Below, one piece after another: positions 1,386-41,603 of a stretch of DNA of 64,000 nucleotides (positions are counted from its first letter, which is position 1; every line of letters starts with the position of its first letter). Position numbers and translations under genes: made by a program. The notes beneath the pieces were generated by a model that was given only the letters and a program-made list of their open reading frames with translations, made no database searches and was not told where the DNA came from. The stretch covers positions 1 through 64,000 of the forward strand of contig JAMJFO010000002.1 in assembly GCA_023544645.1 (NCBI GenBank), read 5' to 3'. Origin of the DNA: Desulfobulbaceae bacterium. Its GTDB lineage: Bacteria > Desulfobacterota > Desulfobulbia > Desulfobulbales > Desulfobulbaceae.

Positions 1386-4300
1386 ATGGGAGTATCAAGG
1401 CGGGATTTTATCAAGTTGTCCGGCGGCACCGTACTGGTTGGAACGCTCGGCGTAAACCTCGATCCTGCAAAGGCCTATGCCCAGGAGTTGAGGATCAAGA
1501 ACGCCAAGCAGACCACCACCATCTGCCCTTACTGTTCCGTGGGGTGCGGTTTAATCGTCCATGCGGAAAACGGTAAGGTCATTAACGCGGAAGGTGATCC
1601 TGATCATCCGATCAGCGAGGGCACGCTCTGTTCCAAGGGCGCATCCATGATGCAGATCGTGAACAACGATACGCGGGTTATGAAGCCTTTGTACCGTGAG
1701 CCCGGCGCGGCGAAATGGAAAGAGGTGGAATGGGACTGGGCTCTGGATAGAATCGCCCGTCTGGTTAAAGACACCCGGGACCGGACCTTCAAGACGGTGG
1801 AAAAAGGGTCCGTGGTCAACCGGACAGACGGTATCGCCCACGTGGGCAGCGCGGCCCTCGACAATGAAGAGTGTTATCTGATTCAAAAACTTGTTCGGTC
1901 ATGGGGCCTGGTGTACGTTGAACACCAGGCGCGTATCTGACACTCTGCAACTGTTGCGGCTCTGGCAGAGTCGTTCGGACGCGGAGCAATGACGAATCAC
2001 TGGATTGACCTGAAAAACGCCGATGTCATTCTGGCAATGGGCGGCAACCCGGCGTCAAACCATCCCATTTCAATGAAGTGGATCATGCGTGCCCGGGAAA
2101 AGGGCGCTAAACTGATCTGTGTTGACCCGCGCTTTACGCGGACCGCCGCAAAAGCGGACCTCTACGCGCCGCTCCGTTCCGGATCGGATATCGCCTTCCT
2201 CGGCGGCATGGTCAACTACATCCTGGAAAACAACCTTTATTTCAAAGAATACGTCGCCAATTACACCAATGCCTCGTTCCTGGTGCACCCGGACTTCAAA
2301 ACTCCGGCAGATCTGGACGGACTGTTTTCAGGGTATGACCCGGAAAACAGGAAGTATGACAAATCAACCTGGGCTTTCCAGAAAGATGAAAACGGCGTGC
2401 CCTTAAGGGATCTCTCCCTCCAGGATCCGAACTGCGTGTTCCAGCACCTGAAGAAACAATATCTCCGCTACACCCCGGAAAAGGTGTCAAGTATTACCGG
2501 GACGCCTTTGGACAAGCTGATGGCTGTGTACGAACTTTACGGTTCCACCGGAAAACCGGATCGGGTCGGGACGGAATGCTATGCCATGGGCTGGACCCAG
2601 CACACGGTGGGAACCCAGAACATCAGGACCATGGCCATTATCCAGCTGCTGCTCGGGAATATGGGCAGGGCCGGCGGCGGAGTTAACGCCCTGCGCGGAG
2701 AGTCCAACGTCCAGGGCTCCACGGACCACGGCATCCTGTTTCATATTCTGACCGGCTACCTGCCGACGCCCAAAGCGTCTCTGGTTGACCTCGCGACCTA
2801 TATAGAGAAGACCACACCGAAAACCAATGATCCCAACAGCACCAACTGGTGGTCCAACCGCGGCAAGTATATTACCAGCTTGCTCAAGGCCCATTTTGGT
2901 TCCGCTGCGACCAGGGAGAACGATTTCGGGTACTCCTGGATGCCGAAGCTGGACGACGGCATGAATGCATCATGGCTCAACCTTTTTGATAAGATGTATG
3001 AGGGACAGTTCGAAGGTTTCTTCGCCTGGGGGCAGAACCCGGCATGTTCGGGTGCGAATTCCAACAAGACGCGTATGGCTATGACCAAGCTCAAATGGCT
3101 GGTGAACGTCAATCTTTTTGACAATGAGACCGGTTCATTCTGGCGCGGCCCGGACCTGAATCCCAGTGAAATCGATACCGAGGTATTCATGCTGCCGTGC
3201 TGCTCCTCGGTGGAGAAAGAAGGGAGCATCACTAATTCCGGACGGTGGGGGCAGTGGCGATACAAGGCCATTGATCCCATCGGCCAGTCCAGGCCCGACG
3301 CCGAGATCATGAATGAGTTGTTTTTCAAGGTGAGGGAGCTCTACAAAAAAGAAGGCGGAGCTTTTCCCGATCCCGTTGTCAACCTGAGCTGGGATTACGG
3401 CGAGAAAGACGCGGCCGGCAAGGTCAGGCATATCGATACCCATGCCGTGGCCAAGGAGATCAACGGATACTATCTCGAAGATGTATATGACGGCAACGGT
3501 CAACTTGTCGGCAAGAAAGGGGATCTGGTCAAATCCTTTGCCTTTTTGAAGGATGATGGATCCACTTCAAGCGGCAACTGGCTTTACTGCAACTCCTATA
3601 TCATGAAGGACGGCAAGCCCTTCAACATGATGGCGCGGCGCGGCAAGGAAGACCCCACCGGCCTCGGCCTCTTTTCGGACTGGACCTGGGCCTGGCCGGT
3701 GAACCGGCGGATCATTTATAATCGTGCCTCGGTTGACCTTCAGGGAAATCCGTGGGATCCCGGCAAGGCAGTGCTGACGTGGAACGCGGCAGATAAAAAA
3801 TGGGTGGGCGACGTTCCCGATGGAGGAGCCCCGCCCATGGGGCAATCAGGCAAACTCCCCTTTATCATGAAACCCGACGGCGTTGCTTCGGTGTTCGGGC
3901 CCGGCCTTTCGGAAGGACCATTCCCCGAACACTATGAGGCGCTGGAATGTCCGCTCGAAGAGAACTCAATGTCCAAGCAGCGGATCAACCCGACCATCAA
4001 GATTTTTGGCGACGATATGGATGCTTTTTATTCCTGCGACTTGCGTTATCCTTTCGTTGCGACCACCTACCGGGTGTCGGAGCACTGGCAGACCGGCGTC
4101 ATGACGCGGCACTGCTCCTGGCAGTTGGAGATGCAGCCGCAGAACTTCGTGGAGATGAGCGTCGAACTGGGCAAGGAGCTGGGGATAAGCAACGGTGAGA
4201 CAGTCGTTGTTGTCTCCGGACGCGGAGAGGTAAAAGCGGTGGCAATGATCACCGAACGGTTCAAGCCTTTCAAGATAGCGGACTCGACGGTTCACCAGGT

Positions 4301-4445
4301 CGGCCTTCCCTGGCATTTCGGCTGGCAGTATCCTGAGGACGGCAGCGGGTATGACAGCTCAAACCTGCTTACCCCGACCGTGGGCGACGCGAACACAATG
4401 ATACCCGAGACGAAGGCCTTCATGGTCAACGTCCGGAAGGCATAG
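1386..4445 (+). CDS. fdnG: Formate dehydrogenase, catalytic subunit (FdnG type, selenocysteine)
   Basis: Molybdenum/tungsten bis-MGD enzyme oxidising formate on the outer face of the membrane. The gene must be read through TGA at 1938-1940 as selenocysteine (residue 185): the frame before it ends VEHQARI and continues HSATVAALAESFGRGAM, the usual Sec region of FdnG proteins. Total 1019 residues, the family length. A Tat signal (SRRDFIK, residues 4-10) starts the protein. The proximal [4Fe-4S] motif CPYCSVGC with a later Cys (TLCSKG) follows at about residues 48-80. An AGGAGG-like site (aaaggagg) precedes ATG 1386. The beta and gamma subunits follow directly, so electrons probably pass to haem b and the quinone pool or a periplasmic cytochrome. 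Standard gene calling would split this into two genes. Confidence 0.96.
1938..1970 (+). promoter_or_regulatory. Selenocysteine UGA and putative bacterial SECIS hairpin of fdnG
   Basis: TGA 1938-1940 is in frame inside fdnG. Just after it CTCTGC (1943-1948) can pair with GCAGAG (1965-1970), leaving a 16-base loop with further pairing options. Position immediately 3' of the UGA is where bacterial SECIS elements lie. The pairing is seen in the sequence; SelB binding is inferred from the family. Confidence 0.7.
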
Positions 4446-4455
4446 GGGGTGAACC

Positions 4456-5229
4456 ATGGCAAATAATAATTCGAAAAATCGCAAAGCGATCCTGGTTACC
4501 CCTGAGGTCTGCATCGGATGCCGGGGATGCCAGACGGCATGCAAATCCTGGAATCAGCTGCCGGGCATCAGTACCAAAAACAACGGCACTTTTCAAAACC
4601 CGCCTGACTTGGCCAGCGCGGCATTCAATATCATCCGGTACAACGAGGTGCCGTCGCAGAAAAATGATGTGCGATGGCTCTTTGTCAGCAGGCGGTGCAT
4701 GCACTGCGAGGATGCCGGCTGCATGACGATCTGTCCCGCTCCGGGTGCATTGTACAGGACGGAGGAAGGAGCCGTGGCCTTTGACCGCGACAAATGCGTA
4801 GCGTGCAAGCTCTGCGTCACCGCCTGTCCGTTCGATGTGCCCCGCTATGATGCGGAAGGAAAGGTGACGAAATGTCACCTCTGCTTCGACCGGATCGGCG
4901 CGGGAATGGAACCGGCCTGTGTCAAGACCTGCCCCACCGGCGCGCTCAGGTTCGGCGACCGGGATGAGCTCATCGGCGCTGCCAGAAAAGATGGTTTCAC
5001 CACTATTTATGGTGAAGAGGATCTGGGCGGCCTGGGCTCGATTTATGCGTTCAAGGAAGAACCTAAACTCTACGGGATGAAGGAAAACCCGGCCATCCCA
5101 TCCAGCGTGATCTTCTGGCACACGTATTTGAAGCCGCTGTCAGTGATCGGTCTGGGCGGTGTGGTCGCTGCCGCGGCGATCCACTATCTGGCTGTAGGCC
5201 CCCACAAGGACGAGGAAGAGGAGGTGTGA
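4456..5229 (+). CDS. fdnH: Formate dehydrogenase, iron-sulfur (beta) subunit
   Basis: Electron-transfer subunit of 257 residues. Four cysteine groups bind four [4Fe-4S] clusters: CIGCRGCQTAC (about residues 18-28), CMHCEDAGCMTIC (about 83-95), CVACKLCVTAC (about 116-126) and CHLC with CVKTC (about 140-160). A single C-terminal hydrophobic segment (about 215-245, LSVIGLGGVVAAAAIHYLAV) should anchor it in the membrane, as in FdnH/FdoH. It starts 10 bases after fdnG and ends 1 base before the gamma subunit, so the three are one operon. The symbol follows the E. coli nitrate-inducible enzyme; fdhB would be equally fair. Confidence 0.93.
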   Translation: MANNNSKNRKAILVTPEVCIGCRGCQTACKSWNQLPGISTKNNGTFQNPPDLASAAFNIIRYNEVPSQKNDVRWLFVSRRCMHCEDAGCMTICPAPGALYRTEEGAVAFDRDKCVACKLCVTACPFDVPRYDAEGKVTKCHLCFDRIGAGMEPACVKTCPTGALRFGDRDELIGAARKDGFTTIYGEEDLGGLGSIYAFKEEPKLYGMKENPAIPSSVIFWHTYLKPLSVIGLGGVVAAAAIHYLAVGPHKDEEEEV

Positions 5230-5836: not shown

Positions 5837-5868
5837 CCTTGAATATTAATAATTCTTTATGAGGGAGA

Positions 5869-5894
5869 AGGGGAGTCGGGAGACCGTCTCCCCT
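5869..5894 (+). terminator. Hairpin after the formate dehydrogenase structural genes
   Basis: AGGGGAG (5869-5875) pairs with CTCCCCT (5888-5894), with further pairing possible inside the loop. Only a short CTTTAG follows, so termination would be weak; it may reduce read-through into the selenoprotein gene that starts at 5907. Confidence 0.35.
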
Positions 5895-5906
5895 CTTTAG
5901 TCGAAT

Positions 5907-6500
5907 ATGGTGAAAAAAATACTGATATGTGTTTTTACCCTGCTTCTGTCAAGTATGGTTTATGCCGCGGAGAAGAGGTTCGATGTCCCGATAGGCGACT
6001 CTCCGTCTCAGGGACCGGCAGACGCGCCGGTTACAATTATCGAGTTTATTGATTTTCAATGACCGCACTGTGTGGCGGCCGGTCCGACCGTCAAGCAGAT
6101 TATGGAGACCTATCCGGGAAAAATCCGGCGGGTTATCAAGAACTATCCCTACAAGTATCGTGATTTCGCGAGAATATCGGCAGAGGCGTCCCTGGCGGCC
6201 CTGGACCAGGGGAAATACTGGGAGATGCACGAAATCCTGATCACCCGTTCTCCAAAACTGGACCGGGCCAGCCTGATTTCCTATGCCCAAGAGCTGGGGC
6301 TTGACGTGAAGAAATTCACCGATTCCATCGACAACGGCAGGCATGCCGGGGAAATTGACCGGGATTTAAAGCTTGCCGAGTCCATGGATCTTTACAACAC
6401 CCCGACCTTCTACATCAACGGGCGGCAGATTATTGGTGAGCGGCCCTTTGACTACTTCAAAAAGATCATTGACGAAGAATTGAATCAGGCTGGAAGGTAG
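5907..6500 (+). CDS. DsbA-like thiol oxidoreductase, probable selenoprotein (Sec-Pro-His-Cys)
   Basis: Exported thioredoxin-fold protein of 197 residues if TGA 6060-6062 is read as selenocysteine. ATG 5907 opens a signal peptide (residues 1-20, ending VYA), then PVTIIEFIDFQ, then UGA, then PHCVAAGPT. In DsbA/DsbG-like proteins this is exactly where the active-site CPHC or CPYC stands, so the site reads U52-P-H-C55. The cis-proline motif NTPTFYING occurs near residue 165. Calling from a later start (GTG 6072) would lose the signal peptide and active site. It sits between fdnI and a dihaem peroxidase, 4 bases before the latter, so it is likely periplasmic and may serve disulfide or haem-protein maturation. 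selD and yedF at 36-38 kb support Sec use. A point error turning TGC or TGT to TGA is the main alternative. Confidence 0.85.
6060..6090 (+). promoter_or_regulatory. In-frame UGA with putative SECIS hairpin in the DsbA-like gene
   Basis: Downstream of TGA 6060-6062 the bases 6076-6090 can fold with CGG (6076-6078) against CCG (6088-6090), one C-A mismatch and a further C-G pair, leaving the loop GGTCC (6081-6085). The loop begins 18 bases after the UGA and contains G-U, both usual for bacterial SECIS elements. The stem is short, so the structure is tentative. Confidence 0.5.
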
Positions 6501-6504
6501 CCGA

Positions 6505-7560
6505 ATGAAAAAAATAATCTGGATGCTCCTGGGAATGTTCTGTCTGCCGGTGATCGGGTTCGCCGGTCACCTGGAACCGTTCAGGGATGTGCCGGTCCCG
6601 GAACAGAATCCCCAGACCCCGGCAAAGGTTGAACTGGGCAAGAAGCTCTTCTTTGACCGGCGGTTATCCGGCGACGGGACCACAAACTGTGGAACCTGCC
6701 ATGTCCCCGAGCAGGGCTACAGCGACGAACTGGAGATATCGCTCCACTATCCCACGACCAGGAACTGGCGCAACTCTCCCACGCTGATCAACGTTGCCTT
6801 CCAGAAATACCTTTTCCATGACGGACGGGCGTCGACCCTCGAGGATCAGGCGCTGTTTCCGATGATGTCGGCCTTTGAGATGAACCAGAACCTGGACTAT
6901 CTGGAGGAGGAAATCCGGTCCGTGCCGGAATACGTGGCCGAGTTCAAGGAGGTTTTCGGCGACGGTGACGTTACCCGGGAGCGTATCGCCATGGCCATTG
7001 CCGCGTTCGAGAGGACGCTTATTTCACGGGATGCTCCCCTTGACAGGTTCCTTGCGGGTGAAACCCAGGCTCTCTCGCCGCAGGCATTGAAAGGGTATGA
7101 AATATTTACGGGCAGGGGCAAGTGCACTGAGTGCCATTACGGCTTCAATCTGGCGGATGACCGCTTCCACGCTCTTCAGGTCCGGGAGAATCCGGAGCAT
7201 CTGGCAGATCCGCGGATCGCGGCAACGCGCCGGTTTGTCGCCAAGGTCTATCATTTCGAGGAATACCGGACCCTGGCCGAGGATCCGGGACGATACCTTA
7301 TCACCAAGGATCAGAAAGACTGGAAAGCATTCAGGACCCCCACGCTCAGGGAAATCGCCAGTACGGCTCCTTACATGCACAACGGTGTTTACGCGACCCT
7401 GGACGAGGTGATAGATTTCTTCAACGCCGGAGGCGGGGAGGGCAACACCGTGCTGAAGCCCCTGCAGCTCACTGGCGCCGAGAAGGAGCAGCTCAGGATT
7501 TTCCTCGAAGAAGGCCTGGCCGGCGAGGTGACCACTTTAACCTATCCTAAAATTCCATAA
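6505..7560 (+). CDS. Dihaem cytochrome c peroxidase / MauG family protein
   Basis: Exported protein of 351 residues with signal peptide MKKIIWMLLGMFCLPVIGFA. Two c-haem sites are visible: CGTCH (about residue 64) and CTECH (about 210), the arrangement of bacterial cytochrome c peroxidases and MauG-like enzymes. A Met-containing motif APYMHNGVYATLDEV (about 288-302) is typical of the C-terminal domain. It would reduce H2O2 in the periplasm with electrons from a c-type donor, or carry out a MauG-type oxidation. It starts 4 bases after the DsbA-like selenoprotein gene and 8 bases before fdhE, so it belongs to the formate dehydrogenase operon and may protect the enzyme from peroxide. Confidence 0.9.
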   Translation: MKKIIWMLLGMFCLPVIGFAGHLEPFRDVPVPEQNPQTPAKVELGKKLFFDRRLSGDGTTNCGTCHVPEQGYSDELEISLHYPTTRNWRNSPTLINVAFQKYLFHDGRASTLEDQALFPMMSAFEMNQNLDYLEEEIRSVPEYVAEFKEVFGDGDVTRERIAMAIAAFERTLISRDAPLDRFLAGETQALSPQALKGYEIFTGRGKCTECHYGFNLADDRFHALQVRENPEHLADPRIAATRRFVAKVYHFEEYRTLAEDPGRYLITKDQKDWKAFRTPTLREIASTAPYMHNGVYATLDEVIDFFNAGGGEGNTVLKPLQLTGAEKEQLRIFLEEGLAGEVTTLTYPKIP

Positions 7561-7568
7561 GGAGACCC

Positions 7569-8336
7569 ATGACCATTGATATGCAGGCTCTGATCGAACA
7601 ACGGCCCCATCTTAAGGATCCGCTGGAGTTCTACGCCAGGTGGCAGCGCTTTCAAAAAGAGGCTGCCCAACTTCTGCCAAAAGGGAGAGCGGCTATGTCG
7701 CCGGAGGACTCCAGGGCATATCCGCGGGAAAGCGCCGGTCCGGTTTTCCGGCTGTTTGTTTCCATCTTTGACCTGCCCGGCGAGGAGTTTGAGCCGCTGA
7801 ACCGGGCGCTGGAGGCCGGCGATATAGACTTCATGCGCCTTCCGCTGGGTGAACTTCCAGACATTTCCCTTCCCTGCACCGAAGCTGAACTGAGCACAAT
7901 CCTTTTTCTTTTGAGCAGGCCCTACTTTCTGGCCCTGCGGGAGAACTCCGGGCAGGACGGCAGCCAATGGGAGGATGGACAATGCCCCCTCTGTTCAGCA
8001 CGCCCTGCTCTTGCCTCAATCGAGGAAGGTCCCCGGCGCCTTTTGCACTGTTCTTACTGCGGTACGGTGGGGCCTTACCGGTTCATAGGCTGTCCGAACT
8101 GCGGCACTGCCAACGCGTCGAATCTGAATACCCTGGTGCCGGAGGAGGAGCCTGGATTCCGGATATCCGCCTGCGATGGGTGTCGGACCTATGTGAAGAT
8201 CGTCGATGCATCGGTTCTGAAAGAGATGACCATCGATCTGGCGGATATGGCGAGCCTTCCGCTGGATATCGTCGCCCAGGGCAAGGAGTACGTGCGCATG
8301 GCGCCGAATCCCATCGGCTTGAAAAAGATGGAGTAG
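7569..8336 (+). CDS. fdhE: Formate dehydrogenase accessory protein FdhE
   Basis: Cytoplasmic maturation factor of 255 residues needed for active respiratory formate dehydrogenase. The C-terminal half carries the rubredoxin-like cysteine pairs of the family: CPLC, CSYC, CPNC and CDGC (about residues 138-212). Known FdhE proteins bind iron through such cysteines and interact with the catalytic subunit before export; that role is taken from the family. AAGGAG lies before ATG 7569. It is the last gene of the formate dehydrogenase operon. Confidence 0.93.
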   Translation: MTIDMQALIEQRPHLKDPLEFYARWQRFQKEAAQLLPKGRAAMSPEDSRAYPRESAGPVFRLFVSIFDLPGEEFEPLNRALEAGDIDFMRLPLGELPDISLPCTEAELSTILFLLSRPYFLALRENSGQDGSQWEDGQCPLCSARPALASIEEGPRRLLHCSYCGTVGPYRFIGCPNCGTANASNLNTLVPEEEPGFRISACDGCRTYVKIVDASVLKEMTIDLADMASLPLDIVAQGKEYVRMAPNPIGLKKME

Positions 8337-35978: not shown

Positions 35979-36080
35979 ATGAATGCTCCAGCTCCAAGCT
36001 GCCAGGCCGTTATTGTACTGGTCCATGATAACTGCGCAAAATCGCTGAACATCCGGCACCAGGCAGGTGAAACAGTATGA
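35979..36080 (+). CDS. Short peptide translationally coupled to selD
   Basis: A 33-codon frame with a strong ribosome site (AAGGAGG, 8 bases before ATG 35979) that ends in TGA overlapping the selD ATG (ATGA at 36077-36080). The peptide begins MNAPAPSCQAVIVLVHDNC and has two cysteines. selD has no good ribosome site of its own, so coupling through this frame may set selD expression. No family recognised; it may be a leader peptide only. Confidence 0.45.
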   Translation: MNAPAPSCQAVIVLVHDNCAKSLNIRHQAGETV

Positions 36081-37123
36081 CCGGAGATTCGACACGCCTG
36101 ACCCGGACTGTCAGGGGGGCGGGCTGCGCCGCCAAACTCGCTCCCGGTGACCTGGACCGCGCCCTCTGCGGACTTGACCTGCCGGTGGACGACAATCTTT
36201 TGGTCGGTCTTGAACGGGCCGATGACGCCGGGGTTTACAAAATCTCCGACGAGCTCGCTCTGGTCCAGACCCTGGATTTTTTCCCGCCCATGGTCGATGA
36301 CCCGCATGCCTTCGGCCGGATCGCCGCTGCCAATTCCCTGAGCGATATCTACGCCATGGGCGGGATGCCGAAGACCGCCATGAACATCGTCGCCTTCCCG
36401 GCCAAAATCATGGATATCTCAGTCCTCCGCCAGATCATTGAAGGAGCGCTGTCCACCCTGCGTGGAGCCGGTGTGGTTCTGGTCGGCGGCCATACCGTCG
36501 ATGATTCGGAGCTGAAGTTCGGCCTGTCCGTAACCGGATTCATCCATCCTCGGCGCATCCTCTTCAAACGAAAATTAAGGGCGGGCGATCGATTGCTGCT
36601 CACCAAGCCGCTGGGCACCGGTATTGTCTGCACCGCCATCAAGGCGGGACTGGCCGGGGCCGAAATCACCGCCCGGGTAACCGGCAACATGGCGGCCCTG
36701 AACCGGGTGGCGGCCGAGATCATGGCGGATTATCCGGTCAGCGCCTGCACCGATATCACCGGCTTCGGTTTTCTCGGGCACCTGGCTGAAATGGTGGTGG
36801 ATTCGGGCGCCGGGGTGAGAATCAACCCGGCGGCGCTGCCGCTCTACCCGGAGGCCCTGGAGTGGGCGGCCATGGGGTTGATCCCGGCCGGGGCCTATAA
36901 CAACAGAAACTTCCGGGGAGAGTTTGTGCGCTTTGCGCCGGGCGTGGACCCGGCCGTGCAGGACCTGCTCTTTGATCCGCAGACCTCCGGCGGGCTGTTG
37001 ATCGCGGTGGCTGCGGACGAAGCAGAACGGTTGCGGTCCGCGCTGCTCGCCGCAGGCGTCGAAACCGCAGCCATGGTCGGCGAGGTGGTAACTGAACCCA
37101 GAGAAAGAATTGTCGTGGAGTAA
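36077..37123 (+). CDS. selD: Selenide, water dikinase (selenophosphate synthetase)
   Basis: Protein of 348 residues making selenophosphate from selenide and ATP, the selenium donor for Sec-tRNA and for 2-selenouridine. The N-terminal catalytic loop reads RGAGCAAKL with Cys17 and Lys20 in the positions known from E. coli SelD; here the site is Cys, not Sec. ATP-binding features of the PurM fold: ADDAGVYKI, QTLDFFPPMVDDPHAFGRIAAANSLSDIYAMGG (in part: about residues 74-105) and the glycine-rich VLVGGHTVDDSEL. Fits the presence of two UGA-containing genes in the window. selA, selB and selC were not seen here. Confidence 0.95.
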   Translation: MTGDSTRLTRTVRGAGCAAKLAPGDLDRALCGLDLPVDDNLLVGLERADDAGVYKISDELALVQTLDFFPPMVDDPHAFGRIAAANSLSDIYAMGGMPKTAMNIVAFPAKIMDISVLRQIIEGALSTLRGAGVVLVGGHTVDDSELKFGLSVTGFIHPRRILFKRKLRAGDRLLLTKPLGTGIVCTAIKAGLAGAEITARVTGNMAALNRVAAEIMADYPVSACTDITGFGFLGHLAEMVVDSGAGVRINPAALPLYPEALEWAAMGLIPAGAYNNRNFRGEFVRFAPGVDPAVQDLLFDPQTSGGLLIAVAADEAERLRSALLAAGVETAAMVGEVVTEPRERIVVE

Positions 37124-37169
37124 CGGCGCCGGAACATTTTGTGACGCCATTCAAATCGGAGGAAAAGAG

Positions 37170-37778
37170 ATGACCAGGGAAATCAACTGCCTGGGGCTGG
37201 CCTGTCCGGCCCCGGTGCTGCAGGTAAAAGAGATGCTGGAAAAAGAACGGCCGGCCGCCGTCACGGTTGTCGTTGACAACGAGGCCGCCCGGGAGAATGT
37301 CAGCCGTTTTCTCGTCCACCAGGGGTTCCAGGTCACGGTGGCCCGGGCAGGCGGTGAATTCCGGGTGACCGGTACCGGCGGAGATGAAGCCTGCGAGATC
37401 ATGACGGATTCCGAGCTTGTTGCCGTGGCTGGAGGCGGGGGCAAAAAAATTCTGGTCATGGTGGGAACGGATAAAATGGGCCACGGTGATGATGGTCTGG
37501 GTACTGCTCTCCTCATCAACTTTCTCAAGACCCTGAAGGAGATGGGGCCGGAGCTGTGGCGGCTTGTTTTTGTCAACAGCGGGGTCAAGCTGTGCGTCCA
37601 AAGGGCCGAAGCGGTGGAGATTCTCCAGGAGCTGGCCGCCGCCGGCGTCAGTATCCTGGTCTGCGGCACCTGCCTGAACCACTTCCGGCTGCTGGACAAA
37701 AAACAGGTCGGCGAGACCACCAACATGCTGGACATTGTTACCTCCATGCAGGTGGCCGACAGCGTCATCAATATATAA
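37170..37778 (+). CDS. yedF: YedF-type selenium/sulfur carrier protein (TusA + DsrE-like domains)
   Basis: Protein of 202 residues. An N-terminal TusA-like domain (residues 1-75) has the persulfide/perselenide site NCLGLACPAPVLQVKEML, and a C-terminal DsrE/F-like domain (about 90-195, KILVMVGTDKMGHGDDGLG, VCGTCLNHF) follows. This two-domain form is the YedF family that genome comparisons link to selenium metabolism and that sits beside selD in many anaerobes. It probably carries selenium in a protein-bound form to SelD; that role is inferred. GGAGG before ATG 37170; 46 bases after selD. Confidence 0.88.
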   Translation: MTREINCLGLACPAPVLQVKEMLEKERPAAVTVVVDNEAARENVSRFLVHQGFQVTVARAGGEFRVTGTGGDEACEIMTDSELVAVAGGGGKKILVMVGTDKMGHGDDGLGTALLINFLKTLKEMGPELWRLVFVNSGVKLCVQRAEAVEILQELAAAGVSILVCGTCLNHFRLLDKKQVGETTNMLDIVTSMQVADSVINI

Positions 37779-37824
37779 AGGAGCGGATTACCGCCTCAAT
37801 ACAATTATTTTAAGGGAGTTTATC

Positions 37825-39507
37825 ATGAAAAAACACCGTACCGCTCTGCTGGCGGCATTTTTTATCTTTATTTCACTGCCGGCCTTTGGCGGGACAGTCT
37901 CCGGCATTGTTGATCTTGAATTTGATCTGTCGCAGCAGCCCGCGGGAAAAGAAGCGCGACTCTGGGTGCCCTACCCGGTATCGGACGCGGACCAGGACAT
38001 TACCGGGGTGAAAATCTCCGGCAACTATGCCGAGGCCGCGGTCTATACGGATAAGGTCTTTAAAACCCCCATGCTCTATGCCCGATGGGACAAGGATGCG
38101 CCGAGCCGCACCCTTTCCTTCTCTTTCCTGGCGAACCGGCAGGAGGTGGCCGGCCGTGATTTCCCGGTTCGGGAAGCTGCCTGGGATCCGGCGGATTACG
38201 CCCTCTACCTGGCCCCCACCCGCCTTGGTCCCATCGACGGCGAAGTAAAAAAACTGGCGGACAAAATCACCAAAGGCAAACAGGGCGTCCTTGCCAGGGC
38301 CAAAGCCATCTATGACTGGACGGTGGAAAACACCTACCGCAATCCCGATACCCGTGGTTGCGGGCTTGGCGATGTCTTCCGGCTGCTCCGGGACCCGGGC
38401 GGCAAATGCGCCGATATCAGCTCCATCTACGTTGCCCTGGCCCGGGCTGCGGGCGTGCCGGCCCGGGAGATTTTCGGCATCCGCATGGGCAAGACGCAGA
38501 CCGTGGATATTACCACCTGGCAGCACTGCTGGGCCGAATTTTTTCTGCCCGGCCATGGCTGGGTAACGGTCGATCCCGCTGATGTCAGAAAAATGATGCT
38601 GGTGGAAAAGCTCGACCTGGATGACCCCGAAACAGTGGAATACCGCCGTTATTTCTGGGGCGGCGTTGACGCGTACCGGATCAGGCTCGGCGAGGGCCGC
38701 GATCTTACCCTTAATCCTCCCCAGCAGGGGGAACCGGTCAACTATCTCATGTATCCCTTTGCCCAGGTGGGGGAGACAACCCTGGACTGGCTTGACCCCG
38801 CTTCCTTCAAATACACCATTACCTATCATCAGCTGGCTGAGGACGGCTACGGGCTCATTGACTCTGATACCCTCAAAAAGCAGCTGGATGGCGGCAGGGA
38901 AATGCTCGTCATCGATGCCCGCAATCCCGAGGAATACGAAGAGGTGCATATCAGGGAGGCAATCAATATCCCGGAAAAAAAATTCAGCGAGCACCTCGAC
39001 AACCTCCCTGCCGACAAATCGGCCCGGCTGGTTTTTTACTGCAACGGCGTCAAGTGCGGCAAGAGCAGAAAGTCTGCGAAAAAAGCCATGGAGCTTGGTT
39101 ATGACAATGTCTTTGTTTATGCCGAGGGCATGCCGGTCTGGGAGGAAAAGGGACTGCCGATCTACGCCGGCCCGAACTATGAGGAACGGATTGAAACCAC
39201 AAAAATCTCCCCGACCGCACTCCATGACGTGATTACCGGCAACGCTGGCACCTTTACCCTGGTCGATGTCCGGGACCTCGAAGAATTCAGCGAAGGCCAT
39301 ATCCCGGGCGCCATCAATATCCCGGCCGCTTCATTCGCTTCTCAATCCGGTGCCCTGGACAAGGAGAAGAACATCATCGTCTACTGCAATTCCGGCGGCC
39401 GCAGCTACAATGCGTACCGGAAGCTCATGAAACTGGGGTACAAAAATATCAACCAGGCCATTTTCGCCGACTGGAAAGAGGCGGGGCTGCCGGTTGAAAA
39501 ACCATAA
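37825..39507 (+). CDS. Exported transglutaminase-like / double rhodanese fusion protein
   Basis: Protein of 560 residues with signal peptide (to about AFGG, residue 28). Residues 40-290 include a transglutaminase-like cysteine protease domain with catalytic triad candidates: Cys in GGKCADISS (about 194), His in WQHCWAEFF (about 233) and Asp in VTVDPADV (about 250). Two rhodanese domains follow: about 350-450 with CNGVKCGKSRK and about 460-560 with CNSGGRS, both with a loop Cys. The fusion sits between yedF and the double-cubane protein gene, so it may handle sulfur or selenium outside the cytoplasm. The combination is unusual; the enzymatic role of the protease-like part is unknown. Confidence 0.85.
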   Translation: MKKHRTALLAAFFIFISLPAFGGTVSGIVDLEFDLSQQPAGKEARLWVPYPVSDADQDITGVKISGNYAEAAVYTDKVFKTPMLYARWDKDAPSRTLSFSFLANRQEVAGRDFPVREAAWDPADYALYLAPTRLGPIDGEVKKLADKITKGKQGVLARAKAIYDWTVENTYRNPDTRGCGLGDVFRLLRDPGGKCADISSIYVALARAAGVPAREIFGIRMGKTQTVDITTWQHCWAEFFLPGHGWVTVDPADVRKMMLVEKLDLDDPETVEYRRYFWGGVDAYRIRLGEGRDLTLNPPQQGEPVNYLMYPFAQVGETTLDWLDPASFKYTITYHQLAEDGYGLIDSDTLKKQLDGGREMLVIDARNPEEYEEVHIREAINIPEKKFSEHLDNLPADKSARLVFYCNGVKCGKSRKSAKKAMELGYDNVFVYAEGMPVWEEKGLPIYAGPNYEERIETTKISPTALHDVITGNAGTFTLVDVRDLEEFSEGHIPGAINIPAASFASQSGALDKEKNIIVYCNSGGRSYNAYRKLMKLGYKNINQAIFADWKEAGLPVEKP

Positions 39508-39552: not shown

Positions 39553-40848
39553 ATGACTGATACGCCATTTGAAGTGAAACCCCACCCGGAAATGTGGGCC
39601 GGGCTGGGCATGGATGTTCCCAGGTTTGACAAGGCCCGGCAGATGCTGGGCGAAGTGTATGACAAGATGTATATCTCTCAAGCCAACCGCCCGACGGCTA
39701 TGCAGTATTTCGATGACATGGTATCCGAGATTTTCGGGGGCCGCATCAAGGAGATGCTGGCGGTGAAGGAGAAGGGCAAACCGGTGGTGGGCACCTTCTG
39801 CGTCTATATTCCTGAAGAGGTGGTGGTCGCAGCTGGCGGTGTATGCGTCGGTCTGTGCGGCGGCTCCCAGGGATCGGTTCCCGATGCGGAAAAGATCCTG
39901 CCCCGCAACATCTGTCCCATGGTCAAGTCAGCCTATGGTTTCAAGGCCGGCAGGATCTGCCCCTATTTCCAGGTTGTCGACTTTGTCTATGGAGAGACCA
40001 CCTGCGACGCCAAGAAAAAGACCTGGGAACTCCTCGACCGGCTGGTGCCGACCCATGTCATGGAAATTCCGCAGATGAAGAACAAGAGGGACAAAACGCT
40101 CTGGCTTGAGGAGGTGCATGAATTCAAAAACAAGGTGGAAGAGGTGTGTGGGACGACCATCTCCGCTGATGACCTTGCCGGAGCCATAAAGGTGATCAAT
40201 AACAAACGCAAGGCCCTGCAGCGGTTGACAAGGCTCAGGGCAAACAGCCCGGTGCCGATCAGCGGCAAGGACGCACTGTTGATAGAGCAGATCGCCTTCT
40301 ATGACGAGCCGGTCCGGTTTGCCGGGAAAGTCAACGGACTGTGCGACGAACTGGAAGAAAGGGTGAAAAAAGGTACAGGCTTCTGTGGCGGCGATACTCC
40401 CAGAATCATGGTTTCCGGCACGCCCATGGCCCTGCCCAATTGGAAAGTGCACAATCTGGTAGAGACAGCCGGGGCCGTGGTGGTGAATGAAGAGTCCTGC
40501 ATCGGCACCAGGTATTTCAAGGATCTGATCGATGAGGGCGGTTCAACCATTGATGAGCAGCTCGATGTTCTTACCGACCGCTACATGCAGATAGACTGTT
40601 CCTGCTTTACGCCCAATGATGAACGCATCGACCAGATACTCAGGGAGTACAAGAAATCCAACGCCCAGGGCATCCTGCATTACTCTCTGCAGTTCTGCCA
40701 TACCTATAACATCGAGGAAATAAAAGTGCGGGAGGCCTGCGAAAAAGAAGGAATCCCCTACCTGTCCATCGAATCGGACTATTCACCCGAAGACGTCGGC
40801 CAACTCCAGACCAGGATCGAAGCTTTTCTTGAGCAGATTCGAGGGTAG
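39553..40848 (+). CDS. Double-cubane cluster-type protein (HgdB/BcrC 2-hydroxyacyl-CoA dehydratase family)
   Basis: Protein of 431 residues in the family of 2-hydroxyacyl-CoA dehydratase and benzoyl-CoA reductase subunits. Cysteines at 83, 98, 102, 121, 136 and 151 lie in the N-terminal half (VGLCGGSQG, RNICPMVKS, RICPYFQVVDF) and at 278, 316, 349, 351, 382 and 396 in the C-terminal half (TGFCGGD, EESCIG, DCSCF, QFCHTY). Only one such subunit is present, followed by an ATPase, which is the layout of double-cubane cluster proteins with an [8Fe-9S] cofactor known to reduce small molecules such as acetylene or azide. A CoA-ester dehydratase needs two different subunits, not found here. Physiological substrate unknown. 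AAGGAG before ATG 39553. Confidence 0.82.
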   Translation: MTDTPFEVKPHPEMWAGLGMDVPRFDKARQMLGEVYDKMYISQANRPTAMQYFDDMVSEIFGGRIKEMLAVKEKGKPVVGTFCVYIPEEVVVAAGGVCVGLCGGSQGSVPDAEKILPRNICPMVKSAYGFKAGRICPYFQVVDFVYGETTCDAKKKTWELLDRLVPTHVMEIPQMKNKRDKTLWLEEVHEFKNKVEEVCGTTISADDLAGAIKVINNKRKALQRLTRLRANSPVPISGKDALLIEQIAFYDEPVRFAGKVNGLCDELEERVKKGTGFCGGDTPRIMVSGTPMALPNWKVHNLVETAGAVVVNEESCIGTRYFKDLIDEGGSTIDEQLDVLTDRYMQIDCSCFTPNDERIDQILREYKKSNAQGILHYSLQFCHTYNIEEIKVREACEKEGIPYLSIESDYSPEDVGQLQTRIEAFLEQIRG

Positions 40849-40850
40849 CC

Positions 40851-41603
40851 ATGCACGTTGGTATTGATCTTGGCTCAAGGACCATCAAAGTTGCCGTACT
40901 GGAAAACGGGCAGCTTGTCGACCAGCAGATTTCCGAGAGCGGTTTTGATCCCCACGGTCAGGCCCTGGAGATGATCGGCAGATACAATCCTGTCAGGGTG
41001 GTGGCTACCGGCTATGGCCGCCACCTTGCCCGGAAGCATTTTGCCGATGAGGTCATCACCGAGATCAAGGCCCATGCCCTGGGGGCGCGGCATCATTTTC
41101 CCGAGTGCACCACTGTGGTCGATATCGGCGGTCAGGATTCCAAAGTCATTTCCCTGGATGCACGGGGCCGGGTCAGCAATTTCCAGATGAACGACAAATG
41201 CGCCGCCGGCACCGGGAAATTTCTGGAGATTATGGCGGCATCGCTTGGCTTTCGGCTGGATGAGTTCGGTCCGGCGGCATTGGCATCAACACAGGAAGTG
41301 GCGATCAACTCCATGTGTACGGTCTTTGCCGAGTCCGAGGTGATTTCGCTGAAAAATCACGGTTCGCCCCCCGGGGATATTGCCCGGGGAGTGCATTTGT
41401 CCGTGGTCAACCGGATTGTCGGCATGCTCGGCCGGGTGGGTTACGGTGAATTAATTGTTTTTTCCGGAGGTGTGGCCCGCAATCCCTGCATGGTGAAGTT
41501 GCTGCGCGAGCGGCTGGATAACGTCCGGGTTGATTCCCCGCCCGCGCCGGACATTGTCGGTGCTCTGGGAGCCGCTCTTTATGCCGGCCGAATGGAGCTC
41601 TGA
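40851..41603 (+). CDS. BadF/BcrA/HgdC-type activator ATPase
   Basis: Protein of 250 residues of the ASKHA fold: phosphate loops GIDLGSRTIKVAVLENG and VDIGGQDSKVISLD, the cluster-binding segment NDKCAAGTGKFLEIMA with Cys about 121, and INSMCTVFAESEVISL with Cys about 160. In this family a homodimer holds one [4Fe-4S] cluster between the subunits and uses ATP hydrolysis to inject a low-potential electron into its partner. It starts 2 bases after the double-cubane gene stop, so that protein is its partner. Confidence 0.9.
   Translation: MHVGIDLGSRTIKVAVLENGQLVDQQISESGFDPHGQALEMIGRYNPVRVVATGYGRHLARKHFADEVITEIKAHALGARHHFPECTTVVDIGGQDSKVISLDARGRVSNFQMNDKCAAGTGKFLEIMAASLGFRLDEFGPAALASTQEVAINSMCTVFAESEVISLKNHGSPPGDIARGVHLSVVNRIVGMLGRVGYGELIVFSGGVARNPCMVKLLRERLDNVRVDSPPAPDIVGALGAALYAGRMEL

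Follow-up and report, generated by a model that had tools for sequence, protein, structure and literature searches.

Introduction

Selenoproteins of the DsbA/DsbG-like kind that carry a UxxC motif have been catalogued since 2005–2006, as two surveys document (PMC1088965, PMC1794560). A second described system that resembles part of the locus reported here is the formate dehydrogenase FdhAB of Desulfovibrio (DvFdhAB). An allosteric disulfide shields this enzyme from O2, and activity requires its reduction (PMC11323313, PMC13397495); formate dehydrogenases of this type have a surface disulfide that governs both activity and oxygen protection (PMC13397495, PMC11323313). A formate dehydrogenase of Desulfovibrio can reduce O2 mostly to H2O2, and soaking with H2O2 alone left the Sec ligand of DvFdhAB in place (PMC11323313). 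In the accessible portions of PMC13397495 and PMC11323313 activation is achieved with DTT, and neither mentions thioredoxin or a physiological reductant.

Here we examine a locus from a Desulfobulbaceae bacterium (GCA_023544645.1, contig JAMJFO010000002.1, positions 1 to 64,000; "the window" denotes this whole stretch of 64,000 nucleotides), in which a preliminary description had placed a DsbA-like selenoprotein with a Sec-Pro-His-Cys active site beside a Sec-containing formate dehydrogenase. An invariant UGA, a conserved bacterial SECIS element (bSECIS) and Sec decoding machinery in the genome all uphold that assignment. We refer to the gene as dsbU, a name of convenience.

Results

dsbU encodes a predicted secreted selenoprotein with a DsbA fold

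The gene and its principal features are as follows.

5907..6500, + strand: dsbU, DsbA-fold selenoprotein of 197 aa with the active site Sec52-Pro-His-Cys55
5907..5966, + strand: signal peptide codons MVKKILICVFTLLLSSMVYA, judged by eye to be of type I and to lack a lipobox, with a putative cleavage site
6060..6062, + strand: Sec-decoded UGA of dsbU, TGA in all orthologous loci at or above 51% identity as well as in more distant UGA orthologues (46–60%)

The reading frame runs from an ATG at 5907 through the in-frame UGA at 6060–6062 to a TAG stop at 6498–6500, and the sequence around the UGA reads FIDFQ-U-PHC. Since a frame this open has a chance probability of about 0.3% at the stop frequency of the window, its openness is weak evidence when taken alone, and the reality of the gene is settled by its homologues. 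The UGA had been proposed to occupy the position of the first active-site Cys of DsbA/DsbG-type proteins, and it does align with Cys in the homologues L108 and L111 and in PDB chains. Two Pfam models match on both sides of the UGA, PF13462 at 97 bits (cut-off 23.2) and PF01323 at 65 bits (cut-off 25.6). The signal peptide that had been reported upstream in the same frame is likewise recognisable, and the downstream gene begins at 6505, 4 bases past the end of dsbU, as originally described. Gene callers that stop at the UGA truncate DsbU, and the signal peptide is lost.

An AlphaFold2 model built from 31 sequences (pLDDT 95.5, pTM 0.90) has a DsbA fold with a helical insert, and a Foldseek search with this model returned BdbD as the best PDB match (TM 0.88), followed by other DsbA-type proteins. 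The N-terminal dimerisation domain of DsbC/DsbG is absent from DsbU, the mature chain of 177 residues starting at the thioredoxin fold. Invariant columns include Sec/Cys32, Cys35 and the Thr-Pro pair T145-P146 (mature numbering), which by homology is the predicted cis-Pro position; the residue that precedes the cis-Pro is thus Thr (NTPTF). Taken together with the conservation described below, we regard it as very nearly certain that DsbU is a secreted, monomeric thiol-disulfide oxidoreductase with Sec52 as its predicted nucleophile, which SelB would insert at the UGA by acting on a hairpin located just downstream.

The UGA is invariant amongst dsbU orthologues

Homologue searches yielded 58 loci with at least 51% identity, together with L095, some of these loci being the same record encountered twice. 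Every one of the 58 loci, and L095 also, has TGA at residue 52 and TGT or TGC at residue 55, although the frame of L095 is broken downstream of the UGA; deeper orthologues at 46–60% identity have TGA too. Their hosts belong to the Desulfobulbales (Desulfoprunum, Desulfopila, Desulfofustis, Desulfobulbus and relatives) and to the Nitrospirota, including Thermodesulfovibrio. Cultured strains amongst the carriers include Desulfoprunum benzoelyticum DSM 28570 and Desulfopila aestuarii DSM 18488 (loci L050 and L063). The protein downstream of the UGA is strongly conserved in more than 60 sequences, which is the opposite of close relatives with stop codons and no conservation beyond them, the pattern that would have told against the original assignment. 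In a tree of 90 rows, obtained by a quick search with the codon column masked, the 62 Sec rows form one all-Sec clade (SH-aLRT 97), and L112, on a long branch just outside this clade, is the sole nearby Cys row. Five of the six peptides used in the pattern scan exclude this position, so the scan carried no bias against Cys forms.

The nearest Cys homologues of DsbU (40–47% identity) stand alone, with the exception of L128 (G081 contig C24), a Cys-containing DsbA-like form whose gene immediately precedes that of a Sec formate dehydrogenase. L128 is the Cys form most closely related to the all-Sec clade; it possibly represents a stage that preceded Sec or a convergent link.

Alternation of UGA and Cys codons amongst relatives, for which the preliminary description had suggested a check, is absent from the dsbU subfamily and occurs only in a paralogue. 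The host encodes a second UGA-containing DsbA-domain protein (L002; G000 contig C65, 72989-73492), a UPYC protein of approximately 300 aa that is much extended at its N terminus, and in the family of this paralogue Sec and Cys swap several times within the same tree. Judged by its sequence, L002 is a selenoprotein candidate in its own right.

A conserved hairpin follows the UGA

6075..6091, + strand: bSECIS hairpin of dsbU, with a 7-position stem, a GUC loop closed by G-C and the motif GGUCC at 6081–6085

The hairpin is formed by the codons from +5 to +10 after the UGA, and these are frozen at synonymous sites in an analysis of 52–53 distinct dsbU sequences. Ala+5 is encoded by GCG in 47 of 48 distinct sequences, Ala+6 by GCC in 45 of 46 and Pro+8 by CCG in 49 of 50, while Gly+7 is GGT in 47 of 52, the remainder being GGG and never GGC. 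The same residues elsewhere in the protein use mixed codons, and the mean divergence is 0.80 bits for the hairpin codons versus 0.17 bits for these (Mann-Whitney p 0.015). Pairing is maintained in 91.7% of cells over 62 sequences, and none of the slid versions of the hairpin comes close on this measure. Compensatory changes on both sides of the stem were observed at four pairs (for example CG to UA and GC to AU), with covariation as high in 0 of 500 shuffles, a test that the kinship of the sequences inflates. Roughly half of the sequences, that of the window among them, have a C.A mismatch at stem position 5.

According to published criteria, a bSECIS element has a loop of 3–9 nt, a stem of 4–16 bp, G in the first two loop positions, a distance of 16–37 nt from the UGA and a minimum free energy of at most -7.5 kcal/mol (PMC13188914). 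The dsbU hairpin falls within all four published limits, with a loop of GUC or GGUCC, up to 7 stem positions, a distance of 18–19 nt and an energy of -15.0 kcal/mol; GGU is found at +18 to +20 after the UGA. Because the folding energy alone is not significant (z -0.58), the case for the hairpin rests on its conservation. A search of the window against Rfam gave nothing at gathering thresholds. The small hairpin with a G-U loop at SECIS distance that was originally proposed is therefore backed by synonymous freezing, by covariation and by the bSECIS criteria, and not by its folding energy.

These data also bear on the possibility that translation really ends at the UGA and that dsbU is a pseudogene or two genes. 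UGA is normally a stop, and the folding energy of the hairpin is unremarkable alone; set against this are the invariant UGA, the conserved protein downstream of it in more than 60 sequences, the frozen synonymous sites and the covariation, which leave this interpretation with a vanishingly small probability, and we rejected it on the strength of the downstream conservation, the UGA and the synonymous sites. We conclude that dsbU is, almost beyond doubt, a genuine selenoprotein gene in which the UGA is predicted to be read as the active-site Sec.

The host has the machinery for selenocysteine decoding

36077..37123, + strand: selD candidate, assigned from AIRS domains and gene context only, a Cys form by sequence
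37110-37778: YedF-type TusA-DsrE protein, beside the selD candidate

The host genome contains a tRNA-Sec with a TCA anticodon, SelB and SelA. A second UGA gene (fdnG), selD and yedF had previously been noted in the window, and all three are accounted for by the fdnG UGA at 1938–1940, the SelD-like AIRS protein and the TusA-DsrE protein. The gene content, comprising tRNA-Sec, SelA, SelB and the SelD candidate, indicates that the host decodes Sec.

Other genes in this part of the window include one following the yedF-like gene (37735-39507) that fuses two rhodanese domains to a transglutaminase-like domain in a single protein, possibly one that handles selenium or sulfur. Directly downstream of the selD/yedF cluster, a 2-hydroxyglutaryl-CoA dehydratase D-component and a BadF/BcrA-type ATPase are encoded (39553-41603). 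Two sulfite-reductase-type subunits at the end of the window are probably DsrAB and point to sulfur or sulfate metabolism.

The neighbouring formate dehydrogenase has a pair of switch cysteines

1386..4445, + strand: fdnG, Tat-type (SRRDFIK) Sec formate dehydrogenase alpha subunit with Sec185
1938..1940, + strand: Sec UGA of fdnG, TGA in all 43 of the dsbU-locus homologues that could be read
3948..3950, + strand: Cys855 codon of FdnG, aligned with Cys845 of DvFdhA (allosteric disulfide)
4035..4037, + strand: Cys884 codon of FdnG, aligned with Cys872 of DvFdhA (allosteric disulfide)

FdnG aligns with Desulfovibrio FdhA over its whole length, and on this alignment it is a dehydrogenase of the DvFdhAB type with a Cys pair equivalent to C845/C872, the disulfide itself being predicted. 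Both switch cysteines are present in 50 of 51 dsbU-linked formate dehydrogenases. A specific association between dsbU and these cysteines was tested and not found, 50/51 comparing with 23/27 for formate dehydrogenases drawn broadly from genomes of the phylum. Since 23 of those 27 enzymes carry the pair, Cys855-Cys884 is a candidate target of DsbU and not evidence of a linkage between the two proteins.

dsbU is located in a conserved gene set with a di-haem peroxidase

4456..5229, + strand: fdnH, 4Fe-4S subunit with a formate dehydrogenase-N transmembrane segment
5231..5836, + strand: fdnI, cytochrome b subunit (PF01292), in some relatives replaced by an NrfD-type subunit
6505..7560, + strand: di-haem cytochrome c peroxidase/MauG-type protein (PF03150) with two CxxCH motifs
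7569..8336, + strand: fdhE-like formate dehydrogenase accessory protein

The peroxidase that had been reported beside dsbU was verified at 6505–7560. Nearly all loci with enough flanking sequence have the order fdnG-fdnH-(fdnI or a gene for an NrfD-type subunit)-dsbU-peroxidase across the Desulfobulbales and Nitrospirota, and fdhE follows the peroxidase in the Desulfobulbales and in some Nitrospirota. Amongst 146 genomes of the order, dsbU is present in 22, the peroxidase in 23 and both in 21 (Fisher 4e-22, in a test that ignores relatedness); among the exceptions, G537 shows the tail of dsbU at the edge of a contig and G526 has a distant peroxidase only. Where dsbU lacks a recognised adjacent dehydrogenase, a Sec formate dehydrogenase is encoded elsewhere, on a different contig or beyond the flanking sequence, in 8 of the 8 genomes checked. 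On this genomic evidence dsbU, the peroxidase and the formate dehydrogenase probably form a functional unit. We found no description of the fdn-dsbU-peroxidase gene set in the literature searched, which included few subscription papers, and the set is not listed in the available part of the section on selenoprotein operons of a 2026 review.

A standalone UGA-containing dsbU with the same GGU+18 hairpin is present in G447 (contig C421, L202:1596-2120), where the 9 kb read contain neither a formate dehydrogenase nor a peroxidase. This exception could show what dsbU does alone.

The strength of the link to the peroxidase raises the possibility that DsbU is a dedicated thiol reductase for peroxidase maturation, which would reduce the CxxCH motifs of the apo-protein before haem attachment in the manner of ResA or CcmG. 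dsbU is tied most tightly to the peroxidase rather than to the dehydrogenase, one locus (L075) has the dsbU-peroxidase pair without an adjacent dehydrogenase, and the two CxxCH motifs account for all four Cys residues of the mature peroxidase. However, a general reductase suffices in cells rich in c-type cytochromes and there is no sign of one reserved for a single client. The fold of DsbU, with its helical insert and CPHC-like dipeptide, is that of DsbA rather than that of TlpA/ResA, and this role would leave unexplained why a dehydrogenase is the neighbour in both phyla. We consider this role unlikely.

Similarly, the strict pairing with a haem peroxidase would fit a selenol peroxidase or electron relay, in which the Sec meets peroxide and a periplasmic donor re-reduces the selenenylsulfide, and the Sec of a UxxC motif is readily oxidised by peroxides. 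DsbU nevertheless lacks resemblance to a peroxidase family, its DsbA fold and redox motif are adequate for thiol exchange and there is so far no candidate electron donor, so that we rate such an activity as very improbable.

The fold of DsbU, its Pro-His dipeptide and its best structural matches, BdbD and DsbA-type oxidases, would also suit a general periplasmic disulfide oxidase that merely happens to be located in the cluster. Yet dsbU occurs in only about 15% of the genomes of the order, whereas other homologues from the superfamily are found in nearly all relatives, and a fixed Sec in a fixed context over two phyla is ill-suited to a housekeeping oxidase. The residue before the cis-Pro differs as well, being Thr in DsbU and Val in E. 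coli DsbA. A general oxidase thus appears decidedly unlikely.

A terminator-like hairpin separates fdnI from dsbU

5865..5897, + strand: terminator-like hairpin in the fdnI/dsbU gap, imperfect in the window and near-perfect in most Desulfobulbales relatives

This GC-rich hairpin (GGGGATAC...GTATCCCC) is flanked by A- and T-tracts (L048-L066, upstream of dsbU). In most Desulfobulbales it ends roughly 4–15 bases ahead of the start codon of dsbU, and a purine-rich stretch resembling a ribosome-binding site lies within its 5′ arm or precedes it. The stem has at least 9 pairs in 22 of 29 loci at or above 69% identity. Several Nitrospirota loci have similar but unrelated hairpins. From its sequence and position, the hairpin may be a transcription attenuator or may control the translation of dsbU. 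The preliminary description had assigned dsbU to the same operon as the formate dehydrogenase; with a conserved terminator-like hairpin between fdnI and dsbU, transcription as a single operon is no more than a possibility, and "same operon" may therefore mean attenuated read-through.

Discussion

We tentatively infer, with somewhat less than even confidence, that the conserved gene set shields and reactivates the formate dehydrogenase when oxygen leaks in, DsbU taking part in the redox care of the dehydrogenase thiols. On such a leak the reduced dehydrogenase could produce H2O2, which the di-haem peroxidase would remove; as a formate dehydrogenase of Desulfovibrio can reduce O2 mostly to H2O2 (PMC11323313), the presence of a peroxidase alongside would make sense. 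The selenol of DsbU, fast-reacting and hard to inactivate, would then reset oxidised thiols of the dehydrogenase, and its most obvious target would be the surface Cys855-Cys884 pair, the counterpart of the allosteric disulfide that protects Desulfovibrio FdhAB from O2. The preliminary description had suggested a redox-repair or maturation set. This suggestion is plausible and the conserved link to the peroxidase adds weight to it, the role of the set being a proposal.

Considered as a whole, the explanation that joins a Sec-containing DsbU, the conserved set and protection of the dehydrogenase is, in our judgement, evenly poised between right and wrong. The terminator-like hairpin counts against it, as a sign that expression of dsbU is not simply coupled to that of fdnGHI, and so do the dsbU of G447 with neither a dehydrogenase nor a peroxidase nearby, the near-equal frequency of the Cys pair in formate dehydrogenases of the phylum in general, and the retention of the Sec ligand by DvFdhAB after soaking with H2O2 alone (PMC11323313). 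A more specific and rather doubtful version of dehydrogenase protection is that DsbU operates a thiol-selenol switch of the periplasmic Sec formate dehydrogenase in vivo, reducing or forming the allosteric disulfide, and that together with the peroxidase it would constitute an oxygen-recovery module shared as a unit by Desulfobacterota and Nitrospirota, with expression attenuated through the hairpin before dsbU. A Sec-containing Dsb protein that travels with switch-type formate dehydrogenases and a peroxidase is a concrete candidate for the physiological reductant.

Comparison with known systems

The hairpin of dsbU shares with the E. coli fdhF SECIS element the GGUC of the apical loop and a GGU at exactly +18 to +20 after the UGA, whereas the sequence of the stem differs. 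Amongst catalogued selenoproteins, the DsbG-like UxxC proteins (PF13462) and the NF041057 Rcas_1661 (seleno)lipoprotein family, as catalogued in PMC13188914 and PMC9312934, have the same Pfam domain, a Sec-first UxxC motif and an extracytoplasmic location. DsbU differs from NF041057 in having no lipobox by eye, no Cys forms in its clade and a tie to formate dehydrogenase and a di-haem peroxidase; on this model, the closest curated one for a selenoprotein, it scores 86 bits against an equivalog cut-off of 190 and was not assigned to this family. With form 1 of the DsbA-like selenoproteins (PF01323; PMC1088965, PMC13188914) DsbU has in common the UxxC motif and a PF01323 score above cut-off. The Sargasso Sea entries of this form belong to COG2761 according to PMC1088965, the available part of which describes no link to formate dehydrogenase. 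BdbD of Bacillus subtilis (3eu3) and the monomeric DsbA-type oxidoreductases have the same fold (TM 0.88) and likewise no DsbC/DsbG dimerisation domain, but BdbD has Cys in place of Sec, is only about 24% identical and has no known gene link to formate dehydrogenase.

Since UxxC DsbA/DsbG-like selenoproteins have long been catalogued, dsbU is a variant within a known kind, and apparently an uncatalogued all-Sec subfamily in a fixed gene setting. Its paralogue within the host, L002, has a UGA at the same active-site position but no GGU at +18 and no formate dehydrogenase in the flanks read. The dsbU subfamily is unusual in being all Sec without any observed reversion to Cys, and the occurrence of this Sec/Cys-swapping paralogue family in the same bacterial order lets the two be compared for the factors that hold Sec in place.
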